DNA of 60,261 bases from a virus. The translations under genes were made by a program, and so were the position numbers. The first letter of the stretch is position 1; every line of letters starts with the position of its first letter. A model generated the notes under the pieces. That model was not told the origin of the DNA. It worked only from the letters and a program-made list of their open reading frames with translations, and made no database searches. The stretch covers positions 1 through 60,261 of IMG/VR virus record IMGVR_UViG_3300032220_000952. The stretch is one strand, 5' to 3'. Below are positions 35,187-57,305 of the stretch, piece by piece.

Positions 35187-35630
35187 TTATACCTTTCTTA
35201 TTCCTTTATGATTATCTATTTTATCAAGTATTTCATTTAACAAGCTCATCTTTATGTATCCAGCCATAGATGCGTTTTTAAGTGCGCTTATTAATTGAAA
35301 CACCATAAATGGAACAACGATTACTTCACTCAGCCACCCCGTACCATTAAATCCTTTTTCAACTATTAATATTGTGGATAGTATCATTATCCAAACAAAT
35401 GTATTTCTTAACACACTTAGTGCTTTATGTGTTTTAAATCCCTCTCTTTTTGAACCGGCGATTATTCCAAATATACCATCTAAAAACATTACACCAATTA
35501 CTGCGGTGTATTGGTCTTGATTGTTCATATATAGATTAAGAAAATAACTGCATATAAAAGCACATAAGCCTGATATGGATGTTATTGTTAATATCAACGG
35601 GTTGGTGAGTATTTGTAATTTACTTGTCAT
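35187..35630 (-). CDS. Phage holin-family protein
   Basis: This 147-residue protein has four hydrophobic spans (about 12-34, 41-57, 71-90, 98-116) and a K-R-E-G-F-K-T-H-K loop. The central F-L-D-G-I-F-G-I-I-A-G-S matches the phage holin family with a D-x-x-x-G-x-x-x-A core. It should make the inner-membrane hole for the endolysin encoded just upstream in the transcript. The lysis set is endolysin, two coiled-coil membrane proteins and this holin. Confidence 0.75.
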   Translation of the reverse strand: MTSKLQILTNPLILTITSISGLCAFICSYFLNLYMNNQDQYTAVIGVMFLDGIFGIIAGSKREGFKTHKALSVLRNTFVWIMILSTILIVEKGFNGTGWLSEVIVVPFMVFQLISALKNASMAGYIKMSLLNEILDKIDNHKGIRKV

Positions 35631-35631: not shown

Positions 35632-36018
35632 CTATTCGTTCTTTAGTTTTTGTATTTCCGTTCTTAATAAATATTCTTCTACACTATCGTTCCACTTTTT
35701 CAAACGTATCATTTCAATCTTTTTTTCAACAACAAATTCCAAAGAATCAGCTTTCGTTTTTGCTTTTCTAGCTTTTTCGTATTTTATTTTTTTAGTGGGG
35801 GTGTATGCTGAATCACTCTGTCTAATAAATTCCTCTTCAATTATCTTTTCCCTACTTTGTGATATGTTATCAATCTCCCCTTCTAACCCAGATATTTTAT
35901 CTAGCAAAGCGGATTCAACATCTAAAAAGTTTTTTTCGGCACGCATATAACCATAATTATATCCCGCTATCCCACCAATAAAGGCAATTATTAATATGTA
36001 AAATTTTTCTAATCGCAT
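35632..36018 (-). CDS. Spanin-like inner membrane coiled-coil protein
   Basis: This 128-residue protein has one N-terminal transmembrane helix (I-L-I-I-A-F-I-G-G-I-A-G-Y) and a long coiled coil (about 30-70 and 85-125). This layout equals an i-spanin subunit. It overlaps the previous gene by 10 bases, and its stop lies 1 base before the holin start. The partner o-spanin is not evident; the lipoprotein at 30811 could serve but is distant. Confidence 0.55.
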   Translation of the reverse strand: MRLEKFYILIIAFIGGIAGYNYGYMRAEKNFLDVESALLDKISGLEGEIDNISQSREKIIEEEFIRQSDSAYTPTKKIKYEKARKAKTKADSLEFVVEKKIEMIRLKKWNDSVEEYLLRTEIQKLKNE

Positions 36019-36224: not shown

Positions 36225-36824
36225 TTATTTAAGTAATGCGTAATATTCTTTAAAGTGTTTGATACGGTCAGGTAAACCAATTGTACCACCATTTACTCTT
36301 TTAGTAATTGCGGTTACATCAGCATCAGTTGCGCCCTTATCTGCGATAGTATTCAAGCCATTGCTAGACCAAAACCAAGCAGCTGATAATAATGGATACT
36401 TTGTTGCTACTAAATCTGGGTTTGCAGCGATATCTTCGTTGATAGCTTTACCAAAAGCTACATAGTTGTTCTTACCTGTCAATTGAATATAACCTCTACC
36501 TCTAAACTTATATCCATCACCACTTACCTCATCACCATTACCCATTCTACCACCATATACTAAGTTAGCAATCTTCTCAGGCTTTCTTTCATATTGAAGA
36601 GCTTTAGCTTCAGTTGGGAAATATTTTTTGAAAATACCCAACAAACCTTTTGCACCATAGTTCAAATTTTCTTGAATGGCTTTAAAACCAGCACTTTCGT
36701 GTCCACATTGTGCTAAAAAGTGAGATAATCTCAAAGCTGAATCAATTTTGAATGTACTCATCACAGACGGGATTTGTCCAATTACTCCATCAGGAACATG
36801 CCCTTTTAACTTATTAATATCCAT
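36225..36824 (-). CDS. GH19 chitinase-fold endolysin
   Basis: This 199-residue muramidase-type enzyme has the GH19 catalytic helix L-A-Q-C-G-H-E-S-A-G-F (Glu43), then E-N-L-N-Y, and G-D-G-Y-K-F-R-G-R-G-Y-I-Q-L-T-G (near 103). No signal peptide is seen, so it requires the holin. The cleavage target is most likely peptidoglycan. A TATTTATA box lies 27 bases before the ATG (36851-36858), consistent with late expression. Confidence 0.92.
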   Translation of the reverse strand: MDINKLKGHVPDGVIGQIPSVMSTFKIDSALRLSHFLAQCGHESAGFKAIQENLNYGAKGLLGIFKKYFPTEAKALQYERKPEKIANLVYGGRMGNGDEVSGDGYKFRGRGYIQLTGKNNYVAFGKAINEDIAANPDLVATKYPLLSAAWFWSSNGLNTIADKGATDADVTAITKRVNGGTIGLPDRIKHFKEYYALLK

Positions 36825-37280: not shown

Positions 37281-37682
37281 TTATTTTTTAAATGCGGATT
37301 CTAATGATTTTCTTAAAGCAGAACTAAATTCGGTTCTTTCAAATGGTAGGTTTTCATCTTGCAATTGTAAAATCGTAGAAGATACTGATGTTTTGTTTGT
37401 ACCTTCCCCAAAATACTCTTTACCATCCATCGTTATTTTAGTTTTTACAACAGTTTTCTTTTGCTTAAATTCAAATGGACCCACTCTAATACCTTTCGTT
37501 GGTGCTTCAATTGATAAAATTTCTACAGTTACTGGTCTACCATCATCGCAGAGTGCGTATTTATCATTTACCAATTCAGTAACGATTTGTTTTGCACCAT
37601 AAGTTAATTTTGTATCAGGCACTCCATTCATATGAGCAAGTGTGATAACGCTTGAAATAAAGTAACATACTATTGTGTTCAT
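37281..37682 (-). CDS. Exported small protein in the CsgG cluster
   Basis: This 133-residue protein begins M-N-T-I-V-C-Y-F-I-S-S-V-I-T-L-A-H, a likely signal peptide. The mature part is mostly beta (V-T-V-E-I-L-S-I then V-V-K-T-K-I-T-M) with a C-terminal helix (S-A-L-R-K-S-L-E-S). Size (about 130) and position recall CsgE/CsgF-type curli accessory proteins, but no signature is visible, so this is only a hypothesis. Confidence 0.5.
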   Translation of the reverse strand: MNTIVCYFISSVITLAHMNGVPDTKLTYGAKQIVTELVNDKYALCDDGRPVTVEILSIEAPTKGIRVGPFEFKQKKTVVKTKITMDGKEYFGEGTNKTSVSSTILQLQDENLPFERTEFSSALRKSLESAFKK

Positions 37683-37694: not shown

Positions 37695-39410
37695 TTAATA
37701 AGTTAAAGTTGATTGATTTGTAAATCCTGGTGATAATAAATATAGGTTTGTTGTACCTCCACTCAAAGGAGTAAAAGTATAGGTAGATTGAACTCCGGGT
37801 ATTGAATTTCTTAAATCGGTTGTGCTGGTGGTTAAGGTTGTCCATTGTGAGTTTGTGAATAGTAAAGTTCTTTTAGTATAAGCCAATCCATTCACCCATT
37901 TGATTATTGTGTTTATATCACCAATCGTAATATTATTATCACCATTTAATTCATATTTGTGGTAGTGGTAAGACCTGAGTGGTGTTCTTTGTAAGATAAT
38001 ATCATCAACTCCTACAAAATCAATAGAAGATAGATTTGAGGTTGTAGTTGGGATTACTACTTCAATATACCATTCATCTCCGTTTGTTATTGGCTGTGAA
38101 AATGAATATTCCCCTAAAGTGTTTGTTGTAGATGTGGTTTGTTGAGTCCAAGGAGTGAATGTTGGTGCTAATACACCCAACTCCGATGTTTGTAATGAAT
38201 AGGTACTTTGATTGGGTCTTTTCCAAACAACAGCCAATCCATCACCCCCACCATATTCTTGCATCCTTGCTCTAAAAGTGTATTGAGTCCCCGCTACTAA
38301 GTTTATATTCCCATATATCGGCCCACTCATTCCGTGTCCACCATAATAACTTACTACAAAAGTTCCACCAATGAATAAATCACTACCATCATCTGAATTT
38401 ATACCAAATGAGTATGTCCCACTTACAGCAGGTATAAATGTCCCCGTAACTTCAACCGAATAGTAATCTCCATTATTGGGAACAGTTGCACCTGCATTTC
38501 TTATAGTTGTAAATGTATTAAAGTTTAAGCAAGTTGTTGTAGGTAATGTCCCCGACCATCTGAGTTGAGTATTCGTAAAGGTTGTATTGAACAATCTATC
38601 AAATTCAGTTGTGTTCGTTGGATGCGCCACATATTGTGATGTGTTTCCATTTCCAGCATGCGTTGAAAAAACCTTTACATCCATCACATTAGATAATCCA
38701 ATTGTTTGACCCCTCTTAAAAAGTTTTGTAAGTATGTTTGAAACAGGTACATCGTTTTCAGTTCTGATAATGCCTGAGTGTGTAAAAGGTATGAAGGGTG
38801 TAAACAATACAGATGAATTAGAAGTCGGACTCCAATTAACACCATTTCTACCGGTTGTTGTGATTATTTGTGAGTTATTGTTGTTTGATATCCCTTGAAG
38901 AGATGCACCAGAAGAACACCCCGGATGTGTACTGACATTTATTTGTATTGTATTTGTTGTTTCTGATAATACGATTTGAAAATCCGTAAAAAGTGTGGTG
39001 CTGGAATTACAGCTATAATAACCTATATGATAACTTACAACAAATTTTCGGTTTGGAGATGAACCAATAGTTTGGTATCTTACAAAGTAACCAGAGATTG
39101 GAAATAAATCCATAGCATTGGCATGAATACCATTACTTACTACACTATTAGGCGAACCACCAACAATATCACCACCTGCATTTGTAAAAGATATCCATCC
39201 GTTAGAACATATGTTGACGGTTGTAAAATTTGTTCCCCAATAACTGAATGTAAAACCTATTGGTAAATTAGATATAGTTTGGTCATCCCCTAAAGTTAAA
39301 GCAGTCCCAGCAGTTGATTCGTATGAGTAGGTGGGTGTTGATTGAGTATAACTCATTTGCCCAAATACCGAAAATGGTAGTAATAGTAATAATATCAACT
39401 TTTTCATCAT
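37695..39410 (-). CDS. Exported PA14-domain protein with dockerin-like repeat
   Basis: This 571-residue protein begins with a Bacteroidota signal peptide (M-M-K-K-L-I-L-L-L-L-L-P-F-S-V-F-G-Q). Residues about 310-405 form a PA14-type domain (T-G-T-F-I-P-A-V-S-G-T-Y-S-F, then S-D-D-G-S-D-L-F-I-G-G and A-G-T-Q-Y-T-F-R-A-R), usually carbohydrate-binding. Residues 487-508 are dockerin-like (N-G-D-N-N-I-T-I-G-D-I-N). The first 250 residues are beta-rich. The start overlaps the preceding gene as ATGA. It could be an adhesin or glycan-binding surface protein. Confidence 0.8.
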   Translation of the reverse strand: MMKKLILLLLLPFSVFGQMSYTQSTPTYSYESTAGTALTLGDDQTISNLPIGFTFSYWGTNFTTVNICSNGWISFTNAGGDIVGGSPNSVVSNGIHANAMDLFPISGYFVRYQTIGSSPNRKFVVSYHIGYYSCNSSTTLFTDFQIVLSETTNTIQINVSTHPGCSSGASLQGISNNNNSQIITTTGRNGVNWSPTSNSSVLFTPFIPFTHSGIIRTENDVPVSNILTKLFKRGQTIGLSNVMDVKVFSTHAGNGNTSQYVAHPTNTTEFDRLFNTTFTNTQLRWSGTLPTTTCLNFNTFTTIRNAGATVPNNGDYYSVEVTGTFIPAVSGTYSFGINSDDGSDLFIGGTFVVSYYGGHGMSGPIYGNINLVAGTQYTFRARMQEYGGGDGLAVVWKRPNQSTYSLQTSELGVLAPTFTPWTQQTTSTTNTLGEYSFSQPITNGDEWYIEVVIPTTTSNLSSIDFVGVDDIILQRTPLRSYHYHKYELNGDNNITIGDINTIIKWVNGLAYTKRTLLFTNSQWTTLTTSTTDLRNSIPGVQSTYTFTPLSGGTTNLYLLSPGFTNQSTLTY

Positions 39411-40630
39411 AACATCAATTTAGTTCCTGTTAATACCTGCCAATTTAAGAATGTTTGATTCAATTGATAAACGCCTGAAAAACTTATAGTCCATTTAAAC
39501 TTATCAGTTACTTTCAAATCGGTATTCACCATTGGTATGAATAAAAATCCACTCTTATACCATTGCCCTGCATAGAAATAAATATAGGGAGAATACACAG
39601 CTAATCCAAGAAAATTAACACCAATTGATTTTCCACCTTTAAAGTTTGTAAATCCCCCACCAATCAAAGACCAATTTCTAAAAGTATTTTTACTAATCTC
39701 ACCCAATGTAAAGGTTGTTCCTCCCATAAGTGTTATCTTATTTATTTTTTGGGCATTGAGTAGGGAAGCAGTTAAAAACCAATCTTCTTTAAAGTTACTC
39801 ATATACGATGTAGAAAATATACCCATATACTCTTTATACTTTAAAGAACCATACCCCGATACATTTAATATGTTTTGTCCAGTTTGATAGTTTATGTTTA
39901 TACCCTTAATAAAGGTTTGTGAGGTATTGACATGAGTTAGAGATGTATTGAATCTGAAATTATCACTACCCTTTTTTGTAATATCTGAATCGTTTCTTAT
40001 TATTACAATATCCCCCGTTGCTATTAAAGCACCATTTGATACTTTGGATGATGATTTACTCTTGCCACCTCCACCACCTCCTCCACCATCACCACTATTT
40101 TCACTTTCACCACCACTTGCCGTTTGTTGGTTTTGTTCTCCCACTACACCACCCTCACTACCTTCAGTTGAGGAACTGCTGTTATTGTTGTTATTATTGC
40201 TTCCACCATCACTTCTCGGTGCGGGTGGGGGTGTGGGTATGCTTCCAACAGAACTGCCGATAGAACTCGCCATAGATACTACTGATGTTAGGTTAGCAAC
40301 TCCTCCCGCAGTTACACTACCTATAAAGTTAGAAACATTATTTGATGCTTCCGCTCCTTCGGCTGCGCAAGGGTTTGAGCCGGGAGGTAAAGCATCTCTG
40401 ATAGATTGTACCCATTGCTCATACGCCCCACCACTCAATTCAGCATAGGTAAATATGCGGTATTGTCCCGCATAAAACATTGTTACTTCAGATGATTGTG
40501 TTTGTAATTGAATTGATTCAGTTCTACCATTACATGGGTTGATATAAGAATAGGTGAAACTCTGAGCGTGTACACTCAAAATTCCACCTATAATTAAGAT
40601 AGTAGTAAGTAGTAGTTTTTTACCAACCAT
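39407..40630 (-). CDS. Exported Gly/Ser-rich protein with C-terminal beta-barrel-like domain
   Basis: The ATG at 40630 is preferred over TTG. The 407-residue product has a signal peptide ending V-H-A-Q, a beta N-terminus, then a low-complexity linker (about 135-200: Asn, Ser, Glu, Gly runs) and a C-terminal domain with alternating strands (I-N-Y-Q-T-G-Q-N-I-L-N-V-S) ending in L-T-G-T-K-L-M-L. The end resembles an outer membrane beta-barrel with a hydrophobic C-terminal strand. It overlaps the CsgG-like gene by 11 bases, so the two may form a unit. Confidence 0.7.
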   Translation of the reverse strand: MVGKKLLLTTILIIGGILSVHAQSFTYSYINPCNGRTESIQLQTQSSEVTMFYAGQYRIFTYAELSGGAYEQWVQSIRDALPPGSNPCAAEGAEASNNVSNFIGSVTAGGVANLTSVVSMASSIGSSVGSIPTPPPAPRSDGGSNNNNNNSSSSTEGSEGGVVGEQNQQTASGGESENSGDGGGGGGGGKSKSSSKVSNGALIATGDIVIIRNDSDITKKGSDNFRFNTSLTHVNTSQTFIKGININYQTGQNILNVSGYGSLKYKEYMGIFSTSYMSNFKEDWFLTASLLNAQKINKITLMGGTTFTLGEISKNTFRNWSLIGGGFTNFKGGKSIGVNFLGLAVYSPYIYFYAGQWYKSGFLFIPMVNTDLKVTDKFKWTISFSGVYQLNQTFLNWQVLTGTKLML

Positions 40631-41315
40631 TTTGCTCAAGACGCTTTACGAGGTTCATTGTCGCAACCTCCAAAGCCTTCTGAGTAGCAATACCAACGGT
40701 TGATTGGTCAAATCCCATTGTAGGGTTTTTAAAGTAACCCTCACCAAATTGTGTAGATTGTCCTTGACCTGAAGCAACTATAAATTGTGAGTTTTCTACA
40801 TTTACTAAACGAATTTGGATACCCATAATGGTTGTATTCGTTTTCTTTAATTTACCCTTATCATAGTTTTCTGCGTATGAAACTGAAAAATCGTAGATTT
40901 CAGCATAAACTATGTATTTAGGTAAACGAATACCCTGCATTTTAAGTTTTGTTTTACCATCATCTAAACCATCAATCTTCTTTTCCCATGCATCCAACAT
41001 TTGGTTTACAACGGCATCTTTTTCTTCAGTAAATTCAAAACGATTAGTATATAATAGGTTTTCTATAATACGATTAGATACACCTAAGCCAAGTCTTTTT
41101 TCTCTCAATTCAGGAAATGTCTCCCAAAGTTCTTTGTTTACATTTAATTTTGAAAGTTGAAGCGTTTGTTTCTTACCTGTGTAGGTAGAGATAGATTCCA
41201 ATGTTCTATCTGTCTTTTCAAAATCCGCTTGATATTGTGTAGTTGATATAGATGATTTACACCCACTCAATAACAACAAGCAACTTACGATTGGAATTAA
41301 AACTATTTCTCTCAT
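40620..41315 (-). CDS. CsgG-like outer membrane lipoprotein
   Basis: This 231-residue protein has a lipobox L-S-G-C (Cys19) and the CsgG pattern: I-I-E-N-L-L-Y-T-N-R-F-E-F-T-E, a beta sheet (Y-A-E-I-Y-D-F-S-V-S and I-Q-I-R-L-V-N-V), V-G-I-A-T-Q-K-A-L-E-V-A, then a final helix L-V-K-R-L. CsgG forms the outer membrane secretion pore for curli. Related genes occur in marine T4-like phages, where the role is unclear. It is followed by two exported proteins and sits near lysis genes. It starts with an ATGA overlap at 41312-41315. Confidence 0.75.
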   Translation of the reverse strand: MREIVLIPIVSCLLLLSGCKSSISTTQYQADFEKTDRTLESISTYTGKKQTLQLSKLNVNKELWETFPELREKRLGLGVSNRIIENLLYTNRFEFTEEKDAVVNQMLDAWEKKIDGLDDGKTKLKMQGIRLPKYIVYAEIYDFSVSYAENYDKGKLKKTNTTIMGIQIRLVNVENSQFIVASGQGQSTQFGEGYFKNPTMGFDQSTVGIATQKALEVATMNLVKRLEQNGW

Positions 41316-41710
41316 TCTTCACCTTCCTGTTCTGCTTGTTTAGCTCTCAATCTCTTCATTCTCTCAGCAGGTGTTTCTTTCTTTTCTTCAACAGGTGCTG
41401 CTGCAGCAGGAGCTGCGGTTTGAGCTGGTGCTACTTCTCTGATAGTTTCCTTTTCTCTGATTACAGTAGTTCCACCACCACTACCTGCGGATGAATTACT
41501 TTGGTTGTTGTTCTCCAAATTAAGATTGATTACTGGTGCTGCGGCAGGTGCGGCCTGTTCCGTTTTGGTTTCTTCACTATCGTTTCCACCACCACCAAAT
41601 AAGGTTGTGGAAATCCACACACCACCACCCGTAACTACAGTGGCGAGTGTTCCAACGATGGTCTTTTTTAATCCACCCCAAGTACCATCATTTTCTGTCT
41701 CTTCTGCCAT
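41312..41710 (-). CDS. Membrane protein with Ala/Pro-rich low-complexity tail
   Basis: This 132-residue protein has one hydrophobic segment (T-I-V-G-T-L-A-T-V-V-T-G-G-G-V-W-I), then a Gly/Asn/Ala/Pro/Glu-rich tail and a basic, coiled-coil C-terminus (E-R-M-K-R-L-R-A-K-Q-A-E). The tail is unlikely to fold. It overlaps the CsgG-like gene at its stop (ATGA). It may anchor or organise the exported cluster. Confidence 0.6.
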   Translation of the reverse strand: MAEETENDGTWGGLKKTIVGTLATVVTGGGVWISTTLFGGGGNDSEETKTEQAAPAAAPVINLNLENNNQSNSSAGSGGGTTVIREKETIREVAPAQTAAPAAAAPVEEKKETPAERMKRLRAKQAEQEGEE

Positions 41711-41723: not shown

Positions 41724-43625
41724 TTAGAATTTAAATATTTTGTAAACTTTTTGCTTTTCGTTAGTGGTTAATCTTACAAAGTAAAAACCTGTCTTTAAAT
41801 CACTAACATTGATTTTTTTCGTAACTACTTCATTTTGATTTACGAACTCTTTTTCTGAGTAAAAGTTTTTACCCATATAATCGTAGATTTCGTATGTTAA
41901 ATATCCCCAATTGGTTTGGAAATAATCTATGTTTAAGTTGTCTTGAACTGGATTTGGATATATTCTAAACCCATTTACTAATTCGTTTACAAGTTCTCTT
42001 GCTCTTCTACCATTAACCACAGTCGCATCTACAGGTGAAGGGATGATATTCAAATCTTCTGCTTTTTCATTTCCCGCTGCTTTGTTGGTTATTTTAATAG
42101 GTGATTGTTCCCAGTTTTGATTTAAGATTTCAAATTGGAAATTAAACATTTGAGTTGGGTTGGTGATAAGTGATGGAGACATTTTAGATTCGTGTCCACC
42201 CCAAGTTATCTCACCAGGTTTTGCTGAAATGAATGCGTTCCAAGCACTTGCTTCAGGCCCTACATTAACATTTGTAAACCTAAAAATGGTTGGGTCATAC
42301 TTTAAAGATAATTGTGCTGCACCTACTTTGTTTCCATGTGTGATAAAGGTAACAGCAACATTTACTGAATTATCATCTGAAATAGTTAATTTAGGTATTC
42401 TAAATTGGACTGAATCTTCAATGTTTTGATAGATTGTTCCTTCATCCAATACATAAGATGTTCCGCTTGTTGGGTTGTTTACTCTTTGAATTTGGAATGA
42501 TAAGTTGTTTAATCCAGTATTTGTTACATCCCCTAAAACATACCCTCTATAACTTAAGGAACTTAATCCATTCAATGGAACATCAATGTTAGTTGTACCT
42601 ATGATATTGGTTTGGAATACATCTGGGTTAGCCATAATCGTAGCGTATTCTCCTGCGGTATAGTACCTAACATTGTATTCATTTGCTACTACAGGAGACC
42701 AAGTAGTTCTACCCGTTGCTAAACGATTAAATATTAAATAAGCATCGGATACGGATAATGTGTTATTGCGGTTTACATCACCTTGTTGGAACTCGTATGC
42801 TTGGGCAGTATCAGCGTAAATACTCATATCGGATAATCTATAAGCATCGGTAATGTTGATAGCTGAATTATCAGATAGGGTATCTAAATTTGATACTAAC
42901 TTAACATTGTAGAAAGATGTATCGTATGGGATTTTAATTCCTGCTAAACCAGCAGCGTCTGTTACAAATCTTTCACCACGACTATAAGTTTGTGTGGTTT
43001 TCAGTTTGTAATCAAATGCGAATGGCATATCCGGCGCAGGTGTTCCATCTACATTTAATAAGGTTACGGGGAACACCAAAGTATCCATTTGGAATCTACC
43101 TCCGTAGCTGTAAACACCTAAAGCGTTATCAACACCAGCGGTTGTGGTTGCTATGTTTGTGTAGGCAGGGGTAGATTGAACTTCTAATGAATCAACGGAA
43201 GAAGGATTGAACCCAACTGCGTGTGGGAGTAAAACTTCAAATACAGCACCATCAGGCCAATCAAATACTGCTGATGTCCCAGTATAGATTGCCGTTGCGT
43301 TTACCCAACCAGGTTGACTATAGTAAGAACCATACTTTGTATTAATTCCAGTTGCGGTTGGTCCCCATTTTACAATAGGTTGTTTGAACGATGTGGTGGG
43401 GTAGAAAAATCTAACCTGAAAACCAGCGTAGTTTGTAGCAGTTGGATTGTGATAGTGTAAATATACTACAGTAGTGTCCTCTAATACACTACCCAATGTA
43501 AACACCGTATCAATCAAAAAGTGTGGTGAGTTTGAGTTTGGCGATACTAATACTTCCGTTCTTCCGTTTTGAGCAAATACTCCAAATGGTAAAAGTAACG
43601 CAAATAATAAAATAAGTTTTTTCAT
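41724..43625 (-). CDS. T9SS-secreted protein with dockerin-like repeats and cohesin-like domain
   Basis: This 633-residue exported protein begins M-K-K-L-I-L-L-F-A-L-L-L-P-F-G-V-F-A-Q (signal peptide). Two dockerin-like repeats lie at 252-269 and 282-305 (S-A-I-N-I-T-D-A-Y, then R-N-N-T-L-S-V-S-D-A-Y), and a cohesin-like domain at about 410-505 (V-G-A-A-Q-L-S-L-K-Y-D-P, then G-E-I-T-W-G-G). The end (about 555-633) has F-R-I-Y-P-N-P-V, then L-K-T-G-F-Y-F-V-R-L, the type A sorting domain of the type IX secretion system. The host T9SS would export and may anchor it. Confidence 0.85.
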   Translation of the reverse strand: MKKLILLFALLLPFGVFAQNGRTEVLVSPNSNSPHFLIDTVFTLGSVLEDTTVVYLHYHNPTATNYAGFQVRFFYPTTSFKQPIVKWGPTATGINTKYGSYYSQPGWVNATAIYTGTSAVFDWPDGAVFEVLLPHAVGFNPSSVDSLEVQSTPAYTNIATTTAGVDNALGVYSYGGRFQMDTLVFPVTLLNVDGTPAPDMPFAFDYKLKTTQTYSRGERFVTDAAGLAGIKIPYDTSFYNVKLVSNLDTLSDNSAINITDAYRLSDMSIYADTAQAYEFQQGDVNRNNTLSVSDAYLIFNRLATGRTTWSPVVANEYNVRYYTAGEYATIMANPDVFQTNIIGTTNIDVPLNGLSSLSYRGYVLGDVTNTGLNNLSFQIQRVNNPTSGTSYVLDEGTIYQNIEDSVQFRIPKLTISDDNSVNVAVTFITHGNKVGAAQLSLKYDPTIFRFTNVNVGPEASAWNAFISAKPGEITWGGHESKMSPSLITNPTQMFNFQFEILNQNWEQSPIKITNKAAGNEKAEDLNIIPSPVDATVVNGRRARELVNELVNGFRIYPNPVQDNLNIDYFQTNWGYLTYEIYDYMGKNFYSEKEFVNQNEVVTKKINVSDLKTGFYFVRLTTNEKQKVYKIFKF

Positions 43626-43645: not shown

Positions 43646-43990
43646 CTATTGTTCATTTGATGATAGCGAAACCCCATCTTCTTCGTCCATTTTCTGAACA
43701 AGCATCTTATCTCTATCTTCGTTAGAGAACCAAAAGTCTACTACTTTGTTTAGATTACCCACAAAAGCACCTAAAAGGATAAGTAGTAACTCTTTCCACG
43801 CTTCTTCAATACTTGCTTTGAACATTACTGCTAAAACAATACCAAATACGATAAAAAAGAATGTAAATAAAATTAGTAATGTAATTTTCCAACGATTTGA
43901 CTGCATCGTTTGGAGCATGAAATTGAATCTTTGGTCATTTTCAACTCTTTGAAAATCTTCGTTGTATAGTAATTTGTTAATAAGTCCCAT
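43646..43990 (-). CDS. Holin-like two-span membrane protein
   Basis: This 114-residue protein has an N-terminal charged region, two transmembrane segments (about 35-57 and 64-83) and a short loop. The end has L-G-A-F-V-G-N-L-N-K-V-V-D-F-W. That layout resembles small holin-like proteins of marine phages. It is followed by the T9SS cargo gene and preceded by another holin-like gene. Confidence 0.6.
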   Translation of the reverse strand: MGLINKLLYNEDFQRVENDQRFNFMLQTMQSNRWKITLLILFTFFFIVFGIVLAVMFKASIEEAWKELLLILLGAFVGNLNKVVDFWFSNEDRDKMLVQKMDEEDGVSLSSNEQ

Positions 43991-43992: not shown

Positions 43993-44244
43993 TTATTCCT
44001 CACCTTTGTCGCAGTTACAATCTTTCTTTTTGAAAATCTTATCTGCGGATGCTAAACCTAAAGCTCCAAAAGCAAGTGCAGCAACTGCATTTACTAATGA
44101 ATCAGCTGGGGCGATGTGGGATTCGGTGAATTGATTGTGGTACATTGTAACACATAGTGTTAATGCTGATAAAATACCCACAAATCGTTTGGATGAAAAT
44201 CCTCCTTTTTCGTCTTGGAAGATTTCAGTAAAAAATCTCTTCAT
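43993..44244 (-). CDS. Holin-like small membrane protein
   Basis: This 83-residue protein has two hydrophobic helices (about 20-35 and 48-70) and ends with a Cys-rich charged tail (D-C-N-C-D-K-G-E-E). The N-terminus has E-K-G-G-F-S-S-K-R-F-V-G-I-L-S-A-L-T-L, a segment that I recall from small Bacteroidota phage membrane proteins. A TATTTATA box (44306-44313) lies 62 bases before the ATG. Confidence 0.55.
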   Translation of the reverse strand: MKRFFTEIFQDEKGGFSSKRFVGILSALTLCVTMYHNQFTESHIAPADSLVNAVAALAFGALGLASADKIFKKKDCNCDKGEE

Positions 44245-44526: not shown

Positions 44527-45714
44527 TTAGGCATAATTATTCACAATTTTTATTAAATCATTTTCGTAATGTCTTACTGAACTAATATGGAATTTAAATA
44601 TATCCATTTCATAATAACCAACTGATATTTCATTCTCTGTTAAAATCTCCGATAATCTTTCAATAAATATAAAGTTATTTTGGTTTAACATCGTACCATC
44701 AAACTCAACAACAATATCATTTTCGCAAATAGGGTCGTGGTGGTTAATTAAACGAATTCTTCTACTTAAATCAAACTTTGTATTTTTTTGTTCTTCATCA
44801 ATGTAATTGGTGGTTATCATACCATATCCATCTTCTATGTATATTTTATCACACCAAGGTTCTAATGTTCTCAACAACTCTAAATTACAATTGTTTACTA
44901 CTAAACCAACACCGTATTTGTGGGGGATGATTGGATACTGATACTCATCGTTTTTTATCCAACTACCCCATTTACGCAGATAGTTTCGGGCAGCAGATTG
45001 TTTCATATTATGAAAATCTACATCTTTGGTAACTTGCTCTATTCCATCCTGAAACTGACCTCCTCTACAAGTTAGATGATACACAAAAGCTGTCCATATT
45101 TGTGTAATATCATATCCATTTAAAATAAATCTATTAAAAATATCACTATCTTCGTGATAAGAGTGAAAAGTTTCATCGTGCATCCCAATTTTAGTAATAT
45201 CTTCTTTATAACAAGCCCATGGAGCAAATATCCCTTTGGTTGTTATGTTTTGATTTTTCGTAATTAACTCCCTCACAAATTCATCAAATTCTTCTTTTTT
45301 AAAATCTTCAGGATAAAGTCCAAAGTTTTTAACTATTTTTTCTTTTCCTTCTGGGTGTAATGGTGGTTCAATTCTAGTTCCGGCTACAATACTACCCCGT
45401 TTCAAAAACTTTAAAATATTTTCATCAAACCCTCTAGCCACATACATATCAGCGTGAAACATACAAACTATTTCAGTAGTTGCCATTTCAATACACTTAT
45501 TATAAGCATGGGCAATTCCTTGTGGTTTATTTAAATCATTTTTAAGGTATTGAATTCCGTTTTCAATTAACCATGTTTCTGTCCCATCCTCATCCATATC
45601 AACATAGACAATAATATGGTGTTCAATAGCACTATTTTCTTTAATAGATTTAATACTATTTTTTAAGTATCTAAGATTGTTTTTGCTTGGGATACAAAAA
45701 GTTATTTTATTCAT
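44527..45714 (-). CDS. GT2-type glycosyltransferase
   Basis: This 395-residue protein starts M-N-K-I-T-F-C-I-P-S-K-N-N (ATG at 45714; the longer frame starts with TTG). It has the GT-A fold: N-N-L-R-Y-L-K-N-S-I-K-S-I, V-Y-V-D-M-D, a D-x-D-like H-A-D-M-Y, and a catalytic loop F-H-S-Y-H-E-D-S-D-I. The C-terminal half is of unknown type. It would add a sugar in the glycan pathway of this region. Confidence 0.8.
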   Translation of the reverse strand: MNKITFCIPSKNNLRYLKNSIKSIKENSAIEHHIIVYVDMDEDGTETWLIENGIQYLKNDLNKPQGIAHAYNKCIEMATTEIVCMFHADMYVARGFDENILKFLKRGSIVAGTRIEPPLHPEGKEKIVKNFGLYPEDFKKEEFDEFVRELITKNQNITTKGIFAPWACYKEDITKIGMHDETFHSYHEDSDIFNRFILNGYDITQIWTAFVYHLTCRGGQFQDGIEQVTKDVDFHNMKQSAARNYLRKWGSWIKNDEYQYPIIPHKYGVGLVVNNCNLELLRTLEPWCDKIYIEDGYGMITTNYIDEEQKNTKFDLSRRIRLINHHDPICENDIVVEFDGTMLNQNNFIFIERLSEILTENEISVGYYEMDIFKFHISSVRHYENDLIKIVNNYA

Positions 45715-45715
45715 A

Positions 45716-46273
45716 TCAAACCCAATGTGTAAATTTAACTCCAATTTTTTCAATTTCTTTTATCAATTCAATTGTACTGTTTTTATCTTCCCCATTTTCT
45801 AAAATAGGATACATATCTTTGTGTGAATGAAACTCTACAAATAAATCATTTAGATATTGAATTGAATTATCTTCTATCATTTTTCTCAAAACAGCATATT
45901 CCGCACCTTCTATATCCATTTTAACAACTATAAAATCATCTTTAGAAAAATTTTGTATTATAAATTCGCTAAAATCCAAACACATTACATCAATAGAGCC
46001 ATAGTAATTTTTTCCTATATGGTTTTTATATATAGATGATGAATCGGTGTTTGGGTATGCAATATTAAACGTAATTATTTCATTATTAGTATATATTGCT
46101 TTATTAATGTAATGAATATTATTGTGAATATTTTGTTCGTTGTGCTCTTGCCATAAATAAGTGTTAGGTTCAAATGAGTATATTTCCCAACTACTATCCA
46201 TATTATACATTTGTATGAATTTCATTAAACCCTCTGCCAAATGCGTCCCGCAATCTAAAAATATTTTTTTCAT
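45716..46273 (-). CDS. FkbM-family methyltransferase
   Basis: This 185-residue SAM-dependent methyltransferase has the motif F-L-D-C-G-T-H near residue 5, F-E-P-N-T near 34, and V-V-K-M-D-I-E-G-A-E-Y near 118, the FkbM pattern. It likely O-methylates a sugar. It lacks the N-terminal helices of typical FkbM proteins, so it is a short member. Two other FkbM genes lie nearby. Confidence 0.8.
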   Translation of the reverse strand: MKKIFLDCGTHLAEGLMKFIQMYNMDSSWEIYSFEPNTYLWQEHNEQNIHNNIHYINKAIYTNNEIITFNIAYPNTDSSSIYKNHIGKNYYGSIDVMCLDFSEFIIQNFSKDDFIVVKMDIEGAEYAVLRKMIEDNSIQYLNDLFVEFHSHKDMYPILENGEDKNSTIELIKEIEKIGVKFTHWV

Positions 46274-46285
46274 ACTATCTAATTA

Positions 46286-47119
46286 TTATTTTGGTAAACA
46301 CAATAAGTTATGACCAGATTTCGGTGATATATCAGTATGTGTTTTAATTTTATTTCCTAAATTGTTAATATCAAATACACCATTACGTTCATCATAGCAC
46401 TCATAGTTTAAATCGGCTATAACATATAATAGTTCATCTATTTCTTTAAAATTTAAACCATCGTATAATTCTGTTATTAATACAGGTTTACATTCAGTTA
46501 TAATAGGTTTAAGGGTTGGAATTATATTTTTATCATGTCCTTCAGCATCTATTTTGATTAAACTAATATTATTTATTAAATTATTGTGGTGTTCTTTTAA
46601 AAAATCGGCTGTATTTACAGCAAAAACATCCAATGGAATAGTATGGCCGGTGACCCCGATACCAGCATTTAAAGATTCCGCGTATCCGCCATTACAAAAA
46701 CCATAGTCGGAATAATGAAAGGTTAAGTTTGTATTTTTTGTAGAACATGCTAAATTGTAAGGAATAATATTTTGATGTATGGTTGAATTTAATTCCAACA
46801 CTTCATAAGCAACTGGATTTGGTTCGAATGAAATAACTTTATTTGCAAATAGTGAAAAAGCTATGGACATATTTCCTACTTGGGCACCAATATCTATTAC
46901 ATTTGAATTTGGTCTAATTAACTTCTTTATATTATTTAATATGGTATTGGTAAATAATTCGCGTTGCTCCCAATTTCCTTGATATGGGTGATTCCATTTA
47001 TAATATTTAAAATTATATTCAATAATATTGTAATTAACAATACTGCTTGAATAGTGAAAGTTATTTTTTTTTAAAAATTGTATAACTTCTTCTCTGTATT
47101 CTTTAATTTCTTTTAACAT
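46286..47119 (-). CDS. FkbM-family methyltransferase
   Basis: This 277-residue protein has N-V-I-D-I-G-A-Q-V-G-N-M-S near residue 75, F-E-P-N-P-V-A near 100, and L-I-K-I-D-A-E-G-H-D-K near 192, the FkbM signature. It likely O-methylates a glycan. It overlaps the preceding gene by 7 bases. Confidence 0.85.
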   Translation of the reverse strand: MLKEIKEYREEVIQFLKKNNFHYSSSIVNYNIIEYNFKYYKWNHPYQGNWEQRELFTNTILNNIKKLIRPNSNVIDIGAQVGNMSIAFSLFANKVISFEPNPVAYEVLELNSTIHQNIIPYNLACSTKNTNLTFHYSDYGFCNGGYAESLNAGIGVTGHTIPLDVFAVNTADFLKEHHNNLINNISLIKIDAEGHDKNIIPTLKPIITECKPVLITELYDGLNFKEIDELLYVIADLNYECYDERNGVFDINNLGNKIKTHTDISPKSGHNLLCLPK

Positions 47120-47997
47120 AAAATTTTATTTTTAAATTTTTCTAATTCATTTAAAAGATTTGCTTCAGCGTGTCTTTTAAACTCCAATTGCTTATCAATT
47201 AAGTGTAAATATTTTTGATATGGATTATGGCGGTATTTAAAATTTTCTATAACTATTACTTCTTCTAGCACAAATTGTTGTATATTGTAATTACAGTTCT
47301 TCATTATATCACAACACAACATAACATATGTATCATCCACGCCATATGGTCCAAATGAATCAGGAATATCTGTTAATTTTAATAATTTAGTGGATAGCAA
47401 ATTAAACCAACCACCACCGAATTTAAAATAATTTATACTTTTTAAATTTACATCACCACTAAAAGAATAGTTGACAATTTTAAAAGGATCAACATTCCTA
47501 TATCTTTCTAAATTTGGTGATAAATTGATAAAATTTTTGTTTACTAAAGAATCCCAACTATTATCCCACATTTTCATTATTTCCGGTGATATAACGTAAT
47601 AATCAATATTAATTTTTTTAGAAGATTCTATCAAATAAAAAAAATGCTCGGGTTTAAATATAACATCACAATCTAAATAAAGAATATTATCAGAGGTGGT
47701 TGAACGTACAGCTTCTCTTCTTTTATCATCACACCCCATACATTTATTATCATCATCAATCACAAACTGAATTTCCGCCCAATCCCACAATTTTTTTATT
47801 TGATTAAATTTATCGATGAAAAATTGTTTAGGTATTTGTGATTTTTTCCAGTCAACTAAATTTAAATTTAAAGTGGTATCTATTATTATTTTATCTTCCG
47901 GATTGAGATAATAACTACCAATTTTAAATTGTAATGATTGCCATTCAAACCAGTCTATTTCATGTGGTAGTAGATGAACTACTATATGCGTTTTCAT
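47113..47997 (-). CDS. GT-A-like glycosyltransferase
   Basis: This 294-residue protein has Y-L-D-C-D-V-I-F near residue 107, a D-x-D metal motif, and F-S-G-D-V and G-G-G-W-F-N-L near 178-200. The overall pattern fits a GT-A-fold transferase of unassigned family. It overlaps its neighbours by 4-7 bases. Confidence 0.65.
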   Translation of the reverse strand: MKTHIVVHLLPHEIDWFEWQSLQFKIGSYYLNPEDKIIIDTTLNLNLVDWKKSQIPKQFFIDKFNQIKKLWDWAEIQFVIDDDNKCMGCDDKRREAVRSTTSDNILYLDCDVIFKPEHFFYLIESSKKINIDYYVISPEIMKMWDNSWDSLVNKNFINLSPNLERYRNVDPFKIVNYSFSGDVNLKSINYFKFGGGWFNLLSTKLLKLTDIPDSFGPYGVDDTYVMLCCDIMKNCNYNIQQFVLEEVIVIENFKYRHNPYQKYLHLIDKQLEFKRHAEANLLNELEKFKNKILC

Positions 47998-48845
47998 TTT
48001 AGTAAATGTTTAAATTTATTTTTGTTTATTTTTATATATTCGGGCAAGTTTACATTATCTATCCAATATTTAAATTCATTTCTACCCAGAATATCTGTAT
48101 TATTTTTTAAACTGTTAGAAATGCTGTTTTTAATATAATCATTATTATATTCTTGATGGCCAAAGTTTTCTATTTTGGTTTTAATTCTATCAACACCACC
48201 TTGATAAGAAAAATGCCAACCAGCATTATCAATATAGGTGTATGTAGTTTTATTTGGAGTATCTAAGTGATTTACACTTGCATTTTTAATATTTTTAAAT
48301 TTACTATAATAAGTTCCGGCCCATTCTTCACTACTACGCATGTTAAGATACATAGAAAAAACCAATTGTTTACACTTATATATTTGATTATCATCTATAA
48401 CATAACTAATATTTGGATTCCAAATTTCATCCAAATCCGATATATAGCACACGTCATCATCGGCAATTCCAGCATTAATTAAAGCATCTTTCATACATTC
48501 TTTTTGATAAAATTCACGCATCCAATGAAACTGCCCATATGGTACATTTGTAGTAGTTAAACAATTCAAATATTTTTGTTTATCAATAGTTGTTGATGCA
48601 TTCAAAAATCTGAATTGAAGCTCCTCATACGATTTTGGGGTATCATCAACTATATGATGTATTATTTTGTGTGCATATTTTTTAAATAATTCTTTATTTT
48701 CATCATAAAATAATTTTTTATTTAATCCAGAAAAAGAAATGTTTGATTCAACAATTACAAATTTATCTACAACATTTTCAAGTGTATTTAATCTAATTTC
48801 TAATAATTCTAATTCATTAAAGAATATAAAGCAATCGTATATCAT
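47994..48845 (-). CDS. GT17-family glycosyltransferase
   Basis: This 283-residue protein carries Y-D-C-F-I-F-F-N-E-L-E-L-L-E-I-R-L near the start, K-F-V-I-V-E-S-N, F-Y-D-E-N-K-E-L-F and Y-I-S-D-L-D-E-I, a hallmark of GT17 (beta-1,4-mannosyl-glycoprotein GlcNAc-transferase family). The substrate in phage or host is unknown. It overlaps the next gene at ATGA (48842-48845). Confidence 0.88.
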   Translation of the reverse strand: MIYDCFIFFNELELLEIRLNTLENVVDKFVIVESNISFSGLNKKLFYDENKELFKKYAHKIIHHIVDDTPKSYEELQFRFLNASTTIDKQKYLNCLTTTNVPYGQFHWMREFYQKECMKDALINAGIADDDVCYISDLDEIWNPNISYVIDDNQIYKCKQLVFSMYLNMRSSEEWAGTYYSKFKNIKNASVNHLDTPNKTTYTYIDNAGWHFSYQGGVDRIKTKIENFGHQEYNNDYIKNSISNSLKNNTDILGRNEFKYWIDNVNLPEYIKINKNKFKHLLK

Positions 48846-49744
48846 TTTAAGTAAATTTTTGTTTGATTAATAAATAAATTTAATTCTCTTTTACATTCAT
48901 CGTATGTTTGTAAATTTCCAAATCTATCCATATAAATAAAATCTTTATATAAATTACAACCCATAGACCAATACCCGTTAGATATATTATGTCTTGCCCA
49001 ATATTTTGGAGCAATAATTAATTTTGCTAACTCATTTGTTAAAGCTGGGAAATATCCAAAGCTAGAGTTGGATAAAATTAACCACTTTGCGTTTTTTATT
49101 ATTGAATAATCCTCCCCAACACCCATGTGAAAAACATTATCGGATAACTCAGGTAATAAATTTTTTACACAATTTGGATTTTCGGTAATTACAGCAAAAG
49201 TCATTTGGGGATTAATACTTAGCATATGATTAATAGCATTAACCCAATATGTTCTAGATAAAAATAATGTATCATCACCCTCATAGTCCCGTATATTTAA
49301 AATACACACATCATCATTTGAAAAATCATATATATCATATTCGGGCTTAACACATAACCATTTTTTAATATCATTTTTATAATCATAAAAATAATCTTCC
49401 GATTGTAATAATCCATCTATTTTGCAATTATCATGTAACGATAACACATTATAATCAGTCAACCGTATATCACACCCTATAGTTGCATCGTGCTGACTAG
49501 TATTTAATTTGATTCTACATTCTTTTTCTTTGTAGTAATTAGTAATTGCGCTAATATCAACAGGCAATCCTAAATCCAAATCCATAAAATACACTCCTTT
49601 ATCGTTGTATCTTCTATCTCCAAAGTTTTCTAAACCAGTGAAACCAAATTCATACCCATTGCGTAGTGCAATAGCTCTTGTTGTAACATATACAGCAAGT
49701 TGGTTTCCAAAACCCTGTCCATAATAAAATTCGGTTGTTATCAT
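48842..49744 (-). CDS. GT11-like fucosyltransferase
   Basis: This 300-residue protein begins with Y-Y-G-Q-G-F-G-N-Q-L-A-V-Y, the GxGNQ element of alpha-1,2-fucosyltransferases, and has A-K-W-L-I-L-S-N-S-S-F-G-Y-F near residue 220, where typical members show S-N-S-S-F-S-W-W. The Trp-Trp pair is lost. The family is GT11 or a relative. It overlaps the GT17 gene by 4 bases. Confidence 0.65.
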   Translation of the reverse strand: MITTEFYYGQGFGNQLAVYVTTRAIALRNGYEFGFTGLENFGDRRYNDKGVYFMDLDLGLPVDISAITNYYKEKECRIKLNTSQHDATIGCDIRLTDYNVLSLHDNCKIDGLLQSEDYFYDYKNDIKKWLCVKPEYDIYDFSNDDVCILNIRDYEGDDTLFLSRTYWVNAINHMLSINPQMTFAVITENPNCVKNLLPELSDNVFHMGVGEDYSIIKNAKWLILSNSSFGYFPALTNELAKLIIAPKYWARHNISNGYWSMGCNLYKDFIYMDRFGNLQTYDECKRELNLFINQTKIYLK

Positions 49745-49762
49745 TAGATATAAATTTTATAG

Positions 49763-51115
49763 TTAATTGGATATTAAGTTATTATAATTATGATTTTTTC
49801 CATGAAAGCCAAATGTTAATATACCATTATTTTCCGGTATTGGTGTTTCAAAAGAAAATTTTGATGCAACATCAATTGGTGCAAATTTACAACCATTTGC
49901 TTCATAAATGTGCTTGTTATGACAACAAAAAAATCCATCTTCGTTGTAAAACCCAAAGTAAGACTTCCACTCAAGATCCAATTCACTAGCTAATCTAAGT
50001 AGTTTTTTACTTCGCAGTGAAAAACCACCATTTCCAACTCGTTGTAAGTTACCATAACTATCTTTAAATGAAAAATCATCTTCAGGTATTGGCCACGGAG
50101 CTCCTATATAATCATATTCTAAAAACAAACCATCCCATTGTTCTGCATTAACAACAAACCCATCCTCTTGTATAATAAGGGCAAATTCAGTATTAATATA
50201 TTTATGTAATTCATATACAATAAATTTACTGTATTCATCGGTATTTAGTATGGGGTTAATTTTAATAACATCTATATTATCTAACACACATTCTTCACTT
50301 GTTAATAATAAAACATTTTTAAATTCAATATTTTTTACAGAATATTGTAACGCTTTTATAGCACGTTGCACATTAACAGATGTAACACATACTAGTGTAA
50401 CATTTTCTAAATACTTTTTGTATTTTTTAGTAATGTAGTGCACTTCTTTTTCTATAATTTTATCATTAACTATTGTATTTGTTGTTCTGTTAGGATGTTC
50501 TCTATTTACAACAGTAACATAGTTACAAATACTTGGTAGTCCAAATTTATCATACAAACGTTTATAATAGTCAACATCAACCAACCATATTAGATTTTCA
50601 TCAAACTCCAAAACATTTTTATTTTTAAACATTAAAACACTGGGTGAACTAATAGTATTTTCACCATAATGAATATTATCGTGATATTTAGGATATACTG
50701 TGTTGTAAAAATTTATTCCATCATTGGAATGACAGCAAGCTGTCACCATCCAATGGTTGTAATTTCCTACAAAATGATATATTTGATAGTATAAACTGTT
50801 TTCATCTACCAAAAAATCATCTTGACAAAGTATTTTTATAACATCACCCGAAGCCTTTGATATTACATTGTTTAAATTGGGCGCAAGTGTTCCGTATTTT
50901 TTTTGATAAAAAAAGTGTTTTATATTTAATTTATTAGACCATTCATAACACAAATTTTTTATTTCATCATTTTTACTATGATCTGAAATAATAATTTCAA
51001 AGTTAGTGTAAGTTTGTTTGGCTAATTTTTGAAAAGAAAAATCTAAATATTTTTTTCCGTTTCCACCCATTTCATATGTTGGTATGCATACACTAATTAA
51101 AGGTAAATTATTCAT
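49763..51115 (-). CDS. Two-domain GT2 / DUF5672 glycosyltransferase
   Basis: The 450-residue protein has an N-terminal GT2 domain (P-L-I-S-V-C-I-P-T-Y-E-M, then S-D-H-S-K-N-D and C-Q-D-D-F-L-V, about 1-225). The C-terminal part (about 238-440) matches DUF5672: L-V-C-V-T-S-V-N-V-Q-R-A, I-I-Q-E-D-G-F-V-V-N, Y-D-Y-I-G-A-P-W and V-G-N-G-G-F-S-L-R-S. A fusion that adds two sugars in turn is likely. Confidence 0.85.
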   Translation of the reverse strand: MNNLPLISVCIPTYEMGGNGKKYLDFSFQKLAKQTYTNFEIIISDHSKNDEIKNLCYEWSNKLNIKHFFYQKKYGTLAPNLNNVISKASGDVIKILCQDDFLVDENSLYYQIYHFVGNYNHWMVTACCHSNDGINFYNTVYPKYHDNIHYGENTISSPSVLMFKNKNVLEFDENLIWLVDVDYYKRLYDKFGLPSICNYVTVVNREHPNRTTNTIVNDKIIEKEVHYITKKYKKYLENVTLVCVTSVNVQRAIKALQYSVKNIEFKNVLLLTSEECVLDNIDVIKINPILNTDEYSKFIVYELHKYINTEFALIIQEDGFVVNAEQWDGLFLEYDYIGAPWPIPEDDFSFKDSYGNLQRVGNGGFSLRSKKLLRLASELDLEWKSYFGFYNEDGFFCCHNKHIYEANGCKFAPIDVASKFSFETPIPENNGILTFGFHGKNHNYNNLISN

Positions 51116-51116
51116 T

Positions 51117-51794
51117 TTAAAAAACTTTTTTTAATTTGCTTATATTCATTGTAATGTTATTTGGCGCATTAATTGGTGCGTTGATGGGTTTTGTATCAAA
51201 TTCTTTTTTTGTAAGACTATGCCAAGTTTTTATTTCAGTACCTACATTATAAATACCAAAACAATTTTTATAAATTAACTTTATAATTAACTCTGATATT
51301 TTATTTACATAATCACCATTTGTAAATTGATTATCCCATGCGTTTTTATATGGAAATGGGTATGGTTTATGAGATGTTCTAACTATTAAATAGTTTTTAC
51401 ATTTTAATTGTATGTGGGCATCACCAAGTAATTTTGTGTAACCATACCAGGTTTCTAAATGAACAGGAACATCTTCCTCTGATGCTTCTGTTTTAGAATT
51501 TGCATAAATATAATCAGTAGATATATGAGCAAGTTTTTTTCCTGTCTCGTTACAAAAATTTACTAATGTATCAACAAACTCATAATTTACTTTCCAATGC
51601 AATTCTTTATTATTTGAATATGTGTCTGTATTTGCTATGCAATTAATGATAACGTCATATTCAGAAAGTTTAAACATCCATTGGTTAAAGTCAAAAATAT
51701 CTATTCCATCTTTTTTTCTTGAAATATAATCCCAATTAGTTTGTTTAACCAATTCAGAACCTAATAAACCATCACCAAGAATTACTATTTTCAT
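51117..51794 (-). CDS. RmlD-like NAD(P)-dependent sugar reductase
   Basis: This 225-residue short-chain dehydrogenase-like enzyme has V-I-L-G-D-G-L-L-G-S-E-L (G-x-x-G-x-x-G variant), I-S-T-D-Y-I-Y-A near 93 and Y-G-Y-T-K-L-L-G near 117 (Y-x-x-x-K active pair). It resembles dTDP-4-dehydrorhamnose reductase but is shorter. It likely completes a deoxy-sugar path. It overlaps the 3-dehydrase gene as ATGA (51791-51794). Confidence 0.8.
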   Translation of the reverse strand: MKIVILGDGLLGSELVKQTNWDYISRKKDGIDIFDFNQWMFKLSEYDVIINCIANTDTYSNNKELHWKVNYEFVDTLVNFCNETGKKLAHISTDYIYANSKTEASEEDVPVHLETWYGYTKLLGDAHIQLKCKNYLIVRTSHKPYPFPYKNAWDNQFTNGDYVNKISELIIKLIYKNCFGIYNVGTEIKTWHSLTKKEFDTKPINAPINAPNNITMNISKLKKVF

Positions 51795-53077: not shown

Positions 53078-53133
53078 ATTTTAATTTTTGTATTTTATTT
53101 TTTAAATTTATATAAAAACTATTTTATATAGAG

Positions 53134-54021
53134 TTATACAAAGTATTTAAAATTTGTTTGATCATATTTAGTATAAAGACCATAGCATGGCACAACACCC
53201 CATAAAGGAATATATACTTCATTTGAAATACCAAAAAATAAAGAACTTAATGCATAATTACTTTTTGATAAAATTAATGTTTCGCAATTACACAATAAAA
53301 ACAAATCATAAGACTCATCAGTATTTGAAATACATTTGTAAGGAATATCCTCTAAATTTTCTTTTGGGTTTGTAATAACAATCACTTCATAATCAGTCTT
53401 ATCTTTTTTTAAAGAATCTACAATAGATTGTATTCTATTAAATGGTATCGGTGCTTGTCCGCTACAATTTGGATTTATTCTTAAAACATCATCATGTGTA
53501 ATATGATTTGCTATATTACCATTTTCAATATGATTTTTAAAGTGAGTTGCACACACTCGCCCATCATAATCCGGTCTATTTCTAACATCCTCAAGCCGCA
53601 AATGTATTAGAATAGTTTTTTTAGGATTAAATGGTATTGTATAACCGTTTGCAGCGCCTCTATCCATAAATGAATTTTTTATATCGGATGTATAGAGCTG
53701 TTTAAATGCTGAAAACATATCAATCTTCACATTAAGTAATGTTCTTGAAAAGGTTTCAAAGTGAGTTGGTGCAGCTAAATCAACAAATTGTGTAAAATCT
53801 TCATTTTGAATTGTAGAATTATGCTTATCTATAATATCAAATAAAGTTTGTACAAAAATAGTACGATTGTAATTTTGATTATAATAATTATATGCCCGTA
53901 TAATGTCCCTACTATGATACCTGATATACATTTTGTTGTTTACGGCATATAGTATTTGTGCTACCATATCCGCTATATTACCACCAAGCCTATCACTTGA
54001 ACCAAATAAATCTATATACAT
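53134..54021 (-). CDS. Putative fucosyltransferase-fold glycosyltransferase
   Basis: This 295-residue protein starts M-Y-I-D-L-F-G-S-S-D-R-L-G-G-N-I-A-D-M-V, has I-L-I-H-L-R-L-E-D-V-R near 139 (like the H-x-R-x-x-D of GT11/GT37-type enzymes), and L-S-K-S-N-Y-A-L-S-S-L near 258. A GT-B fold of fucosyltransferase type is likely; the exact family is uncertain. About 56 bases without a gene separate it from rfbH. Confidence 0.6.
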   Translation of the reverse strand: MYIDLFGSSDRLGGNIADMVAQILYAVNNKMYIRYHSRDIIRAYNYYNQNYNRTIFVQTLFDIIDKHNSTIQNEDFTQFVDLAAPTHFETFSRTLLNVKIDMFSAFKQLYTSDIKNSFMDRGAANGYTIPFNPKKTILIHLRLEDVRNRPDYDGRVCATHFKNHIENGNIANHITHDDVLRINPNCSGQAPIPFNRIQSIVDSLKKDKTDYEVIVITNPKENLEDIPYKCISNTDESYDLFLLCNCETLILSKSNYALSSLFFGISNEVYIPLWGVVPCYGLYTKYDQTNFKYFV

Positions 54022-54022
54022 A

Positions 54023-55003: not shown

Positions 55004-55026
55004 TTTTATTTATTTTTATTTATTAT

Positions 55027-55782: not shown

Positions 55783-55791
55783 TGTTATTTT

Positions 55792-56460: not shown

Positions 56461-56525
56461 TTTGTTTTAAATTTTATTTTATCAAGCAATGTACTAAACC
56501 ACTTGAATTCATATATAATATTTTT

Positions 56526-57299: not shown

Positions 57300-57305
57300 A
57301 TAATA

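Follow-up and report, generated by a model that had tools for sequence, protein, structure and literature searches.

A phage gene for a predicted type IX secretion cargo protein heads a conserved cassette with CsgG-fold and dockerin-like partners

Proteins with type IX secretion system (T9SS) type A sorting domains, one of them also carrying a PA14 domain, have been described in Cryophage (Bellas et al. 2020), whose authors suggested that the phage commandeers the host machinery and that superinfection is excluded (PMC7468147). By its published description, with which alone we compare it, Cryophage is a 76 kb circular genome with variable endoglucanase, GH39 and PA14 genes, and a conserved cassette was not described (PMC7468147). 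According to the accessible part of a 2019 report, sorting-domain ORFs also lie near the head module of crAss-like/BACON phages of gut Bacteroidetes; these carry BACON repeats, not cohesin or dockerin domains, and that part of the report mentions no CsgG-fold or PorV-family partner (PMC6949934). The principle of phage-encoded T9SS cargo is therefore not new, having been proposed in both studies (PMC7468147; PMC6949934). A third related group comprises the pelagimyophages, including HTVC008M and Melnitz, which carry curli CsgG/CsgF genes (PMC7029224, PMC9004378).

Here we analyzed a stretch of viral DNA of 60,261 nucleotides (the window) in which the gene at 41724..43625 encodes a predicted T9SS cargo protein. 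The original prediction for this locus concerned one protein; our evidence points to a multi-gene surface module. We consider it probable that the cargo gene heads a conserved set of surface genes, carried by large T4-like phages of Bacteroidota-type hosts, that relies on export by the host T9SS, with a proposed docking and envelope complex and a surface-binding benefit. Both the combination of T9SS cargo, CsgG-fold and cohesin-dockerin genes in one cassette and the phage PorV-family gene found in a sister lineage appear to be undescribed.

The plus strand of 41724..43625 is interrupted by many stops, the coding strand is the minus strand, and the coordinates of the ORF are exact; the cargo domains, the cassette genes and the endolysin, holin and holin-like genes discussed below all lie on the minus strand. 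The 633 aa product resembles a scaffold, consisting of a signal peptide, a cohesin-like domain, an Ig-like domain, a dockerin-like region, a cohesin domain and the sorting domain. The Sec signal peptide that had been predicted, MKKLILLFALLLPFGVFAQ (43569..43625), is visible at the start of the product, and relatives begin with peptides of the same character. The type A sorting domain at the C-terminus (residues 555-630, 41736..41963), which starts at YPNP, scored above the cut-off with both of the profiles that the original prediction had named, PF18962 (53.8 bits, cut-off 27, E 2.4e-14) and TIGR04183 (39.6 bits, cut-off 23). Residues P557, N558, P559, G585 and Y615 of this domain are invariant in 34/34 sequences, while the usual C-terminal lysine is missing from the most divergent sorting domains. 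The predicted cohesin-like domain was likewise recovered as a PF00963 match at residues 407-517 (42075..42407; 28.3 bits, cut-off 24.1), and Foldseek aligned this region with type I cellulosomal cohesins at a TM of the target of 0.74-0.78.

In an AlphaFold2 model built on 34 phage sequences (mean pLDDT 77), a beta domain at residues 35-180 is followed by a sandwich spanning 182-246; residues 258-304 make up the helical dockerin region, the cohesin covers about 405-537, and a further beta domain occupies 554-632. The first of these, which the original prediction had not included, is a cohesin-like domain (residues ~35-180, 43086..43523), recognized from its strands in the model and from PF00963 matches that fall below threshold at the same place in four relatives (G006, G008, G009 and G012). 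From the model strands, residues ~182-246 (42888..43082) probably form an Ig-like beta-sandwich linker. Matches of the whole cargo to S-layer, complement and other multi-Ig proteins in Foldseek had a TM near 0.1 and were ignored.

The claim of two dockerin-like repeats was borne out in part. Both repeats lie in one stretch, 42720..42872, which aligns with positions 6-56 of the 57 in PF00404 at 14 bits (E 0.0038), short of the cut-off of 22.9, although the same gene exceeds that cut-off in two relatives (G002, 23.3 bits; G004, 27.8 bits). The second repeat holds a canonical calcium loop, D283-x-N285...D294, and the pattern D-x-N-x-[SND]-x3-[ST]-x2-D is found in 34/34 relatives, with loop positions 1, 3 and 12 invariant, position 5 being S, N or D and position 9 being S or T. 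In the first repeat, loop position 1 is degenerate.

Conservation of these domains extends across distant relatives. PF18962 was matched in 34/34 cargo relatives and the cohesin profile in 33/34, at identities down to 25%, and the sorting-domain match was above cut-off in 45/48 records. Whole-gene dN/dS against close relatives was 0.07-0.13, indicating that the cargo gene is maintained and is no relic; taken with the domain counts, these low values argue that the domains are not there by chance. The assignment of the gene product as a T9SS type A cargo protein is a well supported prediction.

Downstream of the cargo gene, the cassette continues with a small membrane protein, a CsgG-fold protein, a conserved exported protein, a dockerin-bearing PA14 or C-type lectin protein and a second CsgG-fold protein. 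The small protein (41312..41710) lies between the cargo and the CsgG-like gene and has a Pro/Ala-rich tail and, judged by eye, one predicted transmembrane segment. The CsgG-like gene (40620..41315) encodes a protein with the lipobox LSGC, and in a Foldseek comparison of its model, which is of moderate confidence (pLDDT 65), with the PDB the best 25 matches were all CsgG chains (E down to 3.6e-8, TM ~0.4-0.5). Fold comparison alone revealed this resemblance: the sequence profile of the family gave no more than a chance match against the PDB, and PF03783 did not match the protein or its immuto counterpart, while the HTVC008M CsgG used as positive control scored 180 bits. The next gene (39407..40639) encodes a conserved exported protein with a YxYxDPC N-terminal region, a Gly/Ser-rich linker and a beta-rich C-terminal half. 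It is possibly an outer-membrane protein; it had no meaningful Pfam match, and a test for the strand alternation of beta-barrels was not significant. Relationship of its YxYxDPC N-terminus to CsgF was rejected, since PF10614 did not match; nor was CsgF (PF10614) found in any of the 15 records searched. At the end of the cassette, profile-profile comparison with hhalign identified the small exported protein at 37281..37682 as a distant CsgG-fold paralogue (92.6%, E 4.6e-7, for A5 against A8; 0.6% for the unrelated control against A7).

Like the pelagimyophage CsgGF operons, this module occurs in T4-like phages, places a CsgG-fold gene in a small conserved operon and lacks curli fibre genes. It differs from them in having neither a PF03783 match nor CsgF, and in including T9SS cargo, cohesin and dockerin-like partners.

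The gene at 37695..39410 encodes an exported PA14-domain protein (PF07691, 49.5 bits) that, unlike the PA14 protein of Cryophage, has no sorting domain of its own. It ends in a dockerin-like loop, ELNGDNNITIGD, a feature absent from the original prediction, which had not taken in the neighboring cassette; PF00404 scored 13.2 bits there (37869-37949), below the cut-off of 22.9. Among 26 relatives, 11 contain PA14 and nine contain a C-type lectin domain, and most retain one dockerin-type loop. In having a cohesin fold and dockerin-type calcium loops on separate proteins of one operon, the module resembles cellulosomes, from which it differs in its one or two cohesins, its degenerate first dockerin repeat and its lack of cellulase partners; binding between the two is a prediction. 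We rate docking of the phage cohesin to these loops an even bet.

The gene order is widely shared. Relatives of the CsgG-like gene occur in 432 viral stretches, and synteny was counted in the 71 viral loci that had enough upstream sequence. Among these 71, 68 have the cargo gene upstream of this gene at a distance of ≤1.5 kb, and the other members are present at similar frequencies (small protein, 68; 39407-type protein, 69; small exported protein, 65), except that the PA14/lectin-dockerin protein is detectable in only 51.

In a phage collection of 50,697 records, relatives of the cargo were found in only four, all of them Flavobacterium phage vB_FspM_immuto; a search of the same collection with the sorting domain alone returned weak matches only (E 0.6). 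Immuto is an isolated phage of Flavobacterium sp. LMO8 and carries the cassette, but there the cargo is divided between two proteins with separate signal peptides: gp14 combines a cohesin-like domain with the dockerin, and gp15 a cohesin with the sorting domain. Immuto gp16, gp17, gp18 and gp19 correspond to 41312-41710, 40620-41315, 39407-40639 and 37281-37682, respectively, and gp13, which combines a C-type lectin domain with a dockerin-like loop, corresponds to 37695-39410. The secreted nuclease gp12, which adjoins the cassette in immuto, is the counterpart of 23666-24334; the window gene encodes a DNA/RNA endonuclease with a signal peptide (PF01223, 80.4 bits).

T4 portal matches were found in 8/15 records and gp23 in 9/15, counting one record (G048) whose matches lie on a phage contig, and the two occur on the same genome in immuto and seven other cassette-bearing records. 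The 60 kb window, itself a fragment, contains no portal or capsid gene. In a cellular collection that represents 84,980 species by one genome apiece, the CsgG-like gene had four matches. One lies on a phage contig of 254 kb that had been placed in the bin of a Bacteroidetes genome; the remaining three lie on chromosomal-looking contigs of Ignavibacteriales, Bacteroidota and Chitinispirillum. SprA, which forms the T9SS translocon, is encoded in all four genomes and was absent from the two phage records searched for it. Around position 10 kb in L092, L093 and L095, cellular CsgG-fold genes occur as pairs in SprA-positive genomes, and one neighbor in L093 is a caspase-like protein (PF00656).

Bacteroidota commonly have cargo proteins that combine a cohesin with a sorting domain, and the gene could instead be a bacterial surface gene that was acquired by chance and does nothing for the phage, or the DNA could be host sequence wrongly classed as viral. 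We regard this as extremely improbable given that the same gene order recurs in 68/71 viral loci at identities down to 25%, that dN/dS is about 0.1, that an isolated phage has the cassette and that the CsgG-like gene is almost without cellular copies. Contamination by a host gene, in particular, was ruled out by the isolated phage genome and the synteny.

A divergent sister lineage (L068, L069, L071 and others) has a larger sorting-domain protein of 949-1020 aa in the cargo position, followed directly downstream, ahead of the CsgG-like gene, by a PorV/PorQ-family protein. The genes for this protein lie at L068:8583-9428, L069:8190-9044 and L071:8167-9021, and in L096-L112. With NF033709 the first three score 95.1, 98.6 and 90.1 bits, respectively, at a family cut-off of 90; these three did not reach the equivalog cut-offs for PorV or for PorQ. 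In 17/17 viral loci with a PorV-family gene, a sorting-domain ORF is immediately upstream or one small ORF away. PorV recognizes cargo by binding its sorting domain and carries it away from the translocon, so it would be difficult to account for this pairing if the sorting domain were not functional; the pairing strongly supports the T9SS reading of the cargo. We know of no earlier phage-borne T9SS component, and a literature search, which covered few subscription papers, returned nothing relevant on phage PorV or phage cohesin-dockerin systems. Four short contigs of the PorV lineage contain no gp23, so the phage identity of these contigs rests on the IMG/VR classification and on one neighboring gene, upstream of the cargo, which is related to genes of immuto, a Microcystis phage and a huge phage. 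The window and its close relatives lack a PorV-family gene, and the search for one was also negative in most other cassette-bearing phage records. The likeness to host T9SS consists of the type A sorting domain on the cargo and, in the sister lineage, the PorV/PorQ-family protein; the difference is that a phage contributes cargo and no more than a single accessory component.

The original prediction had a phage using the host T9SS to place its own protein on the cell surface. Its first half is well supported, in that profiles, invariant motif, isolated phage and PorV-family pairing all point to a gene for T9SS type A cargo; its second half, surface placement, is something we infer. From these sequence data, export of the cargo by T9SS is very probable, and its export to the surface during infection is likely.

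The C-type lectin, PA14 and Ig-like domains seen here are also common in phage adhesins, and the proteins might accordingly be parts of the virion, acting as tail adhesins or head decoration and not on the host surface. This strikes us as very unlikely, because Sec signal peptides, the T9SS domain of the cargo, the lipobox of the CsgG-fold protein and the PorV-family partner in the sister lineage all point to the envelope, and T4-type virions are assembled in the cytoplasm.

The surroundings of the cassette bear on another explanation, that of an accessory lysis or egress module in which a CsgG-fold ring, holin-like proteins and surface proteins destabilize the outer membrane late in infection, the sorting domain merely delivering one part outside. 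Upstream of the cargo are a two-transmembrane holin-like protein that travels with the cassette (43646..43990) and a small holin-like membrane protein (43993..44244; transmembrane segment judged by eye). Downstream and co-directional are a GH19 endolysin (36225..36824; PF00182 38.7 bits, phrog_181 endolysin 249.7 bits) and a holin (35187..35630; PF05105 24.1 bits, cut-off 22.2; phrog_199). The cassette runs into these endolysin and holin genes on the same strand with gaps of at most ~60 bp, many relatives likewise have endolysin and/or holin genes after the cassette, and the CsgGF genes of marine phages have been suggested to act in lysis (PMC9004378). Lysis, though, would not call for externally exposed lectin, PA14, cohesin and dockerin domains, a spanin-like gene seems, by eye, to be present (35632-36018), and in immuto the cassette comes after replication and nuclease genes with the endolysin ~6 kb off. 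We judge a lysis module to be unlikely, and keep it under consideration because the cassette adjoins endolysin and holin genes and because of the earlier CsgGF proposal (PMC9004378). Remodeling of the infected-cell surface is favored over support of lysis because the exposed parts are binding modules and because the PA14/lectin protein is the most variable member.

Under the surface-remodeling model, the cargo would cross the inner membrane by Sec during infection, and its C-terminal domain would be recognized by the host SprA/PorV translocon. The sorting domain would then be cleaved off and the cargo tethered at the cell surface, where its cohesin domain or domains may dock the dockerin-bearing PA14 or C-type lectin protein of the same operon. 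The CsgG-fold protein, the 39407-40639 protein and the small membrane proteins could form a supporting envelope complex. The most likely use would be altered binding by the infected-cell surface, either masking receptors from superinfecting phages or holding cells to neighbors or particles; that the benefit is superinfection exclusion or adhesion has, on the domain content, about equal odds of being right or wrong. More tentatively, and with the balance somewhat against it, the cassettes of large phages of Bacteroidota-type hosts may together represent a dedicated surface-display apparatus composed of T9SS scaffolds, CsgG-fold envelope proteins and exchangeable lectin/PA14 adhesins docked through cohesin-dockerin contacts, with a PorV-type shuttle in one lineage redirecting the host T9SS to phage cargo during infection.

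If the surface-remodeling model is correct, immuto and Flavobacterium sp. LMO8 would offer a cultured phage and host in which hijacking of outer-membrane secretion can be tested directly. The model would also join two puzzles, the presence of T9SS cargo genes in phages and of CsgG-type genes in T4-like phages. For aquatic communities, conserved phage genes that redecorate infected Bacteroidota cells would matter to superinfection, to aggregation and to changes of receptor.

Additional sorting-domain proteins (533 and 519 aa) are encoded elsewhere in related phage contigs (G002:C1:7090-7308 and 119939-120274; G007:C1:9322-9519), as is a protein of 975 aa that matches the cohesin profile below threshold. 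Within the window, TATTTATA (coding-strand sense) was found ≤40 nt upstream of minus-strand gene starts at 10/18 places, compared with 1.2 expected. This sequence is the reverse complement of the T4 late promoter and is possibly a promoter or translation signal; the T4 late-promoter consensus in the coding direction, TATAAATA, had too few sites to matter. Four otherwise different proteins (827-1534, 1566-2321, 2364-2696 and 3524-4396) have in common an N-terminal peptide like MKLSELRQLIREE, a possible targeting or prohead signal. The window also carries an unusual load of metabolic and chaperone genes, including GroEL (25705-27312) and, by eye, GroES (27964-28257), glutamine synthetase (16097-17104) and a methylglyoxal-synthase-like gene (13286-13660). 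Beside the cassette, at 44527-60049, are ~15 genes resembling those for glycosyltransferases, FkbM-type methyltransferases, sugar epimerases and an aminotransferase, a set that looks like phage-encoded surface-glycan synthesis.
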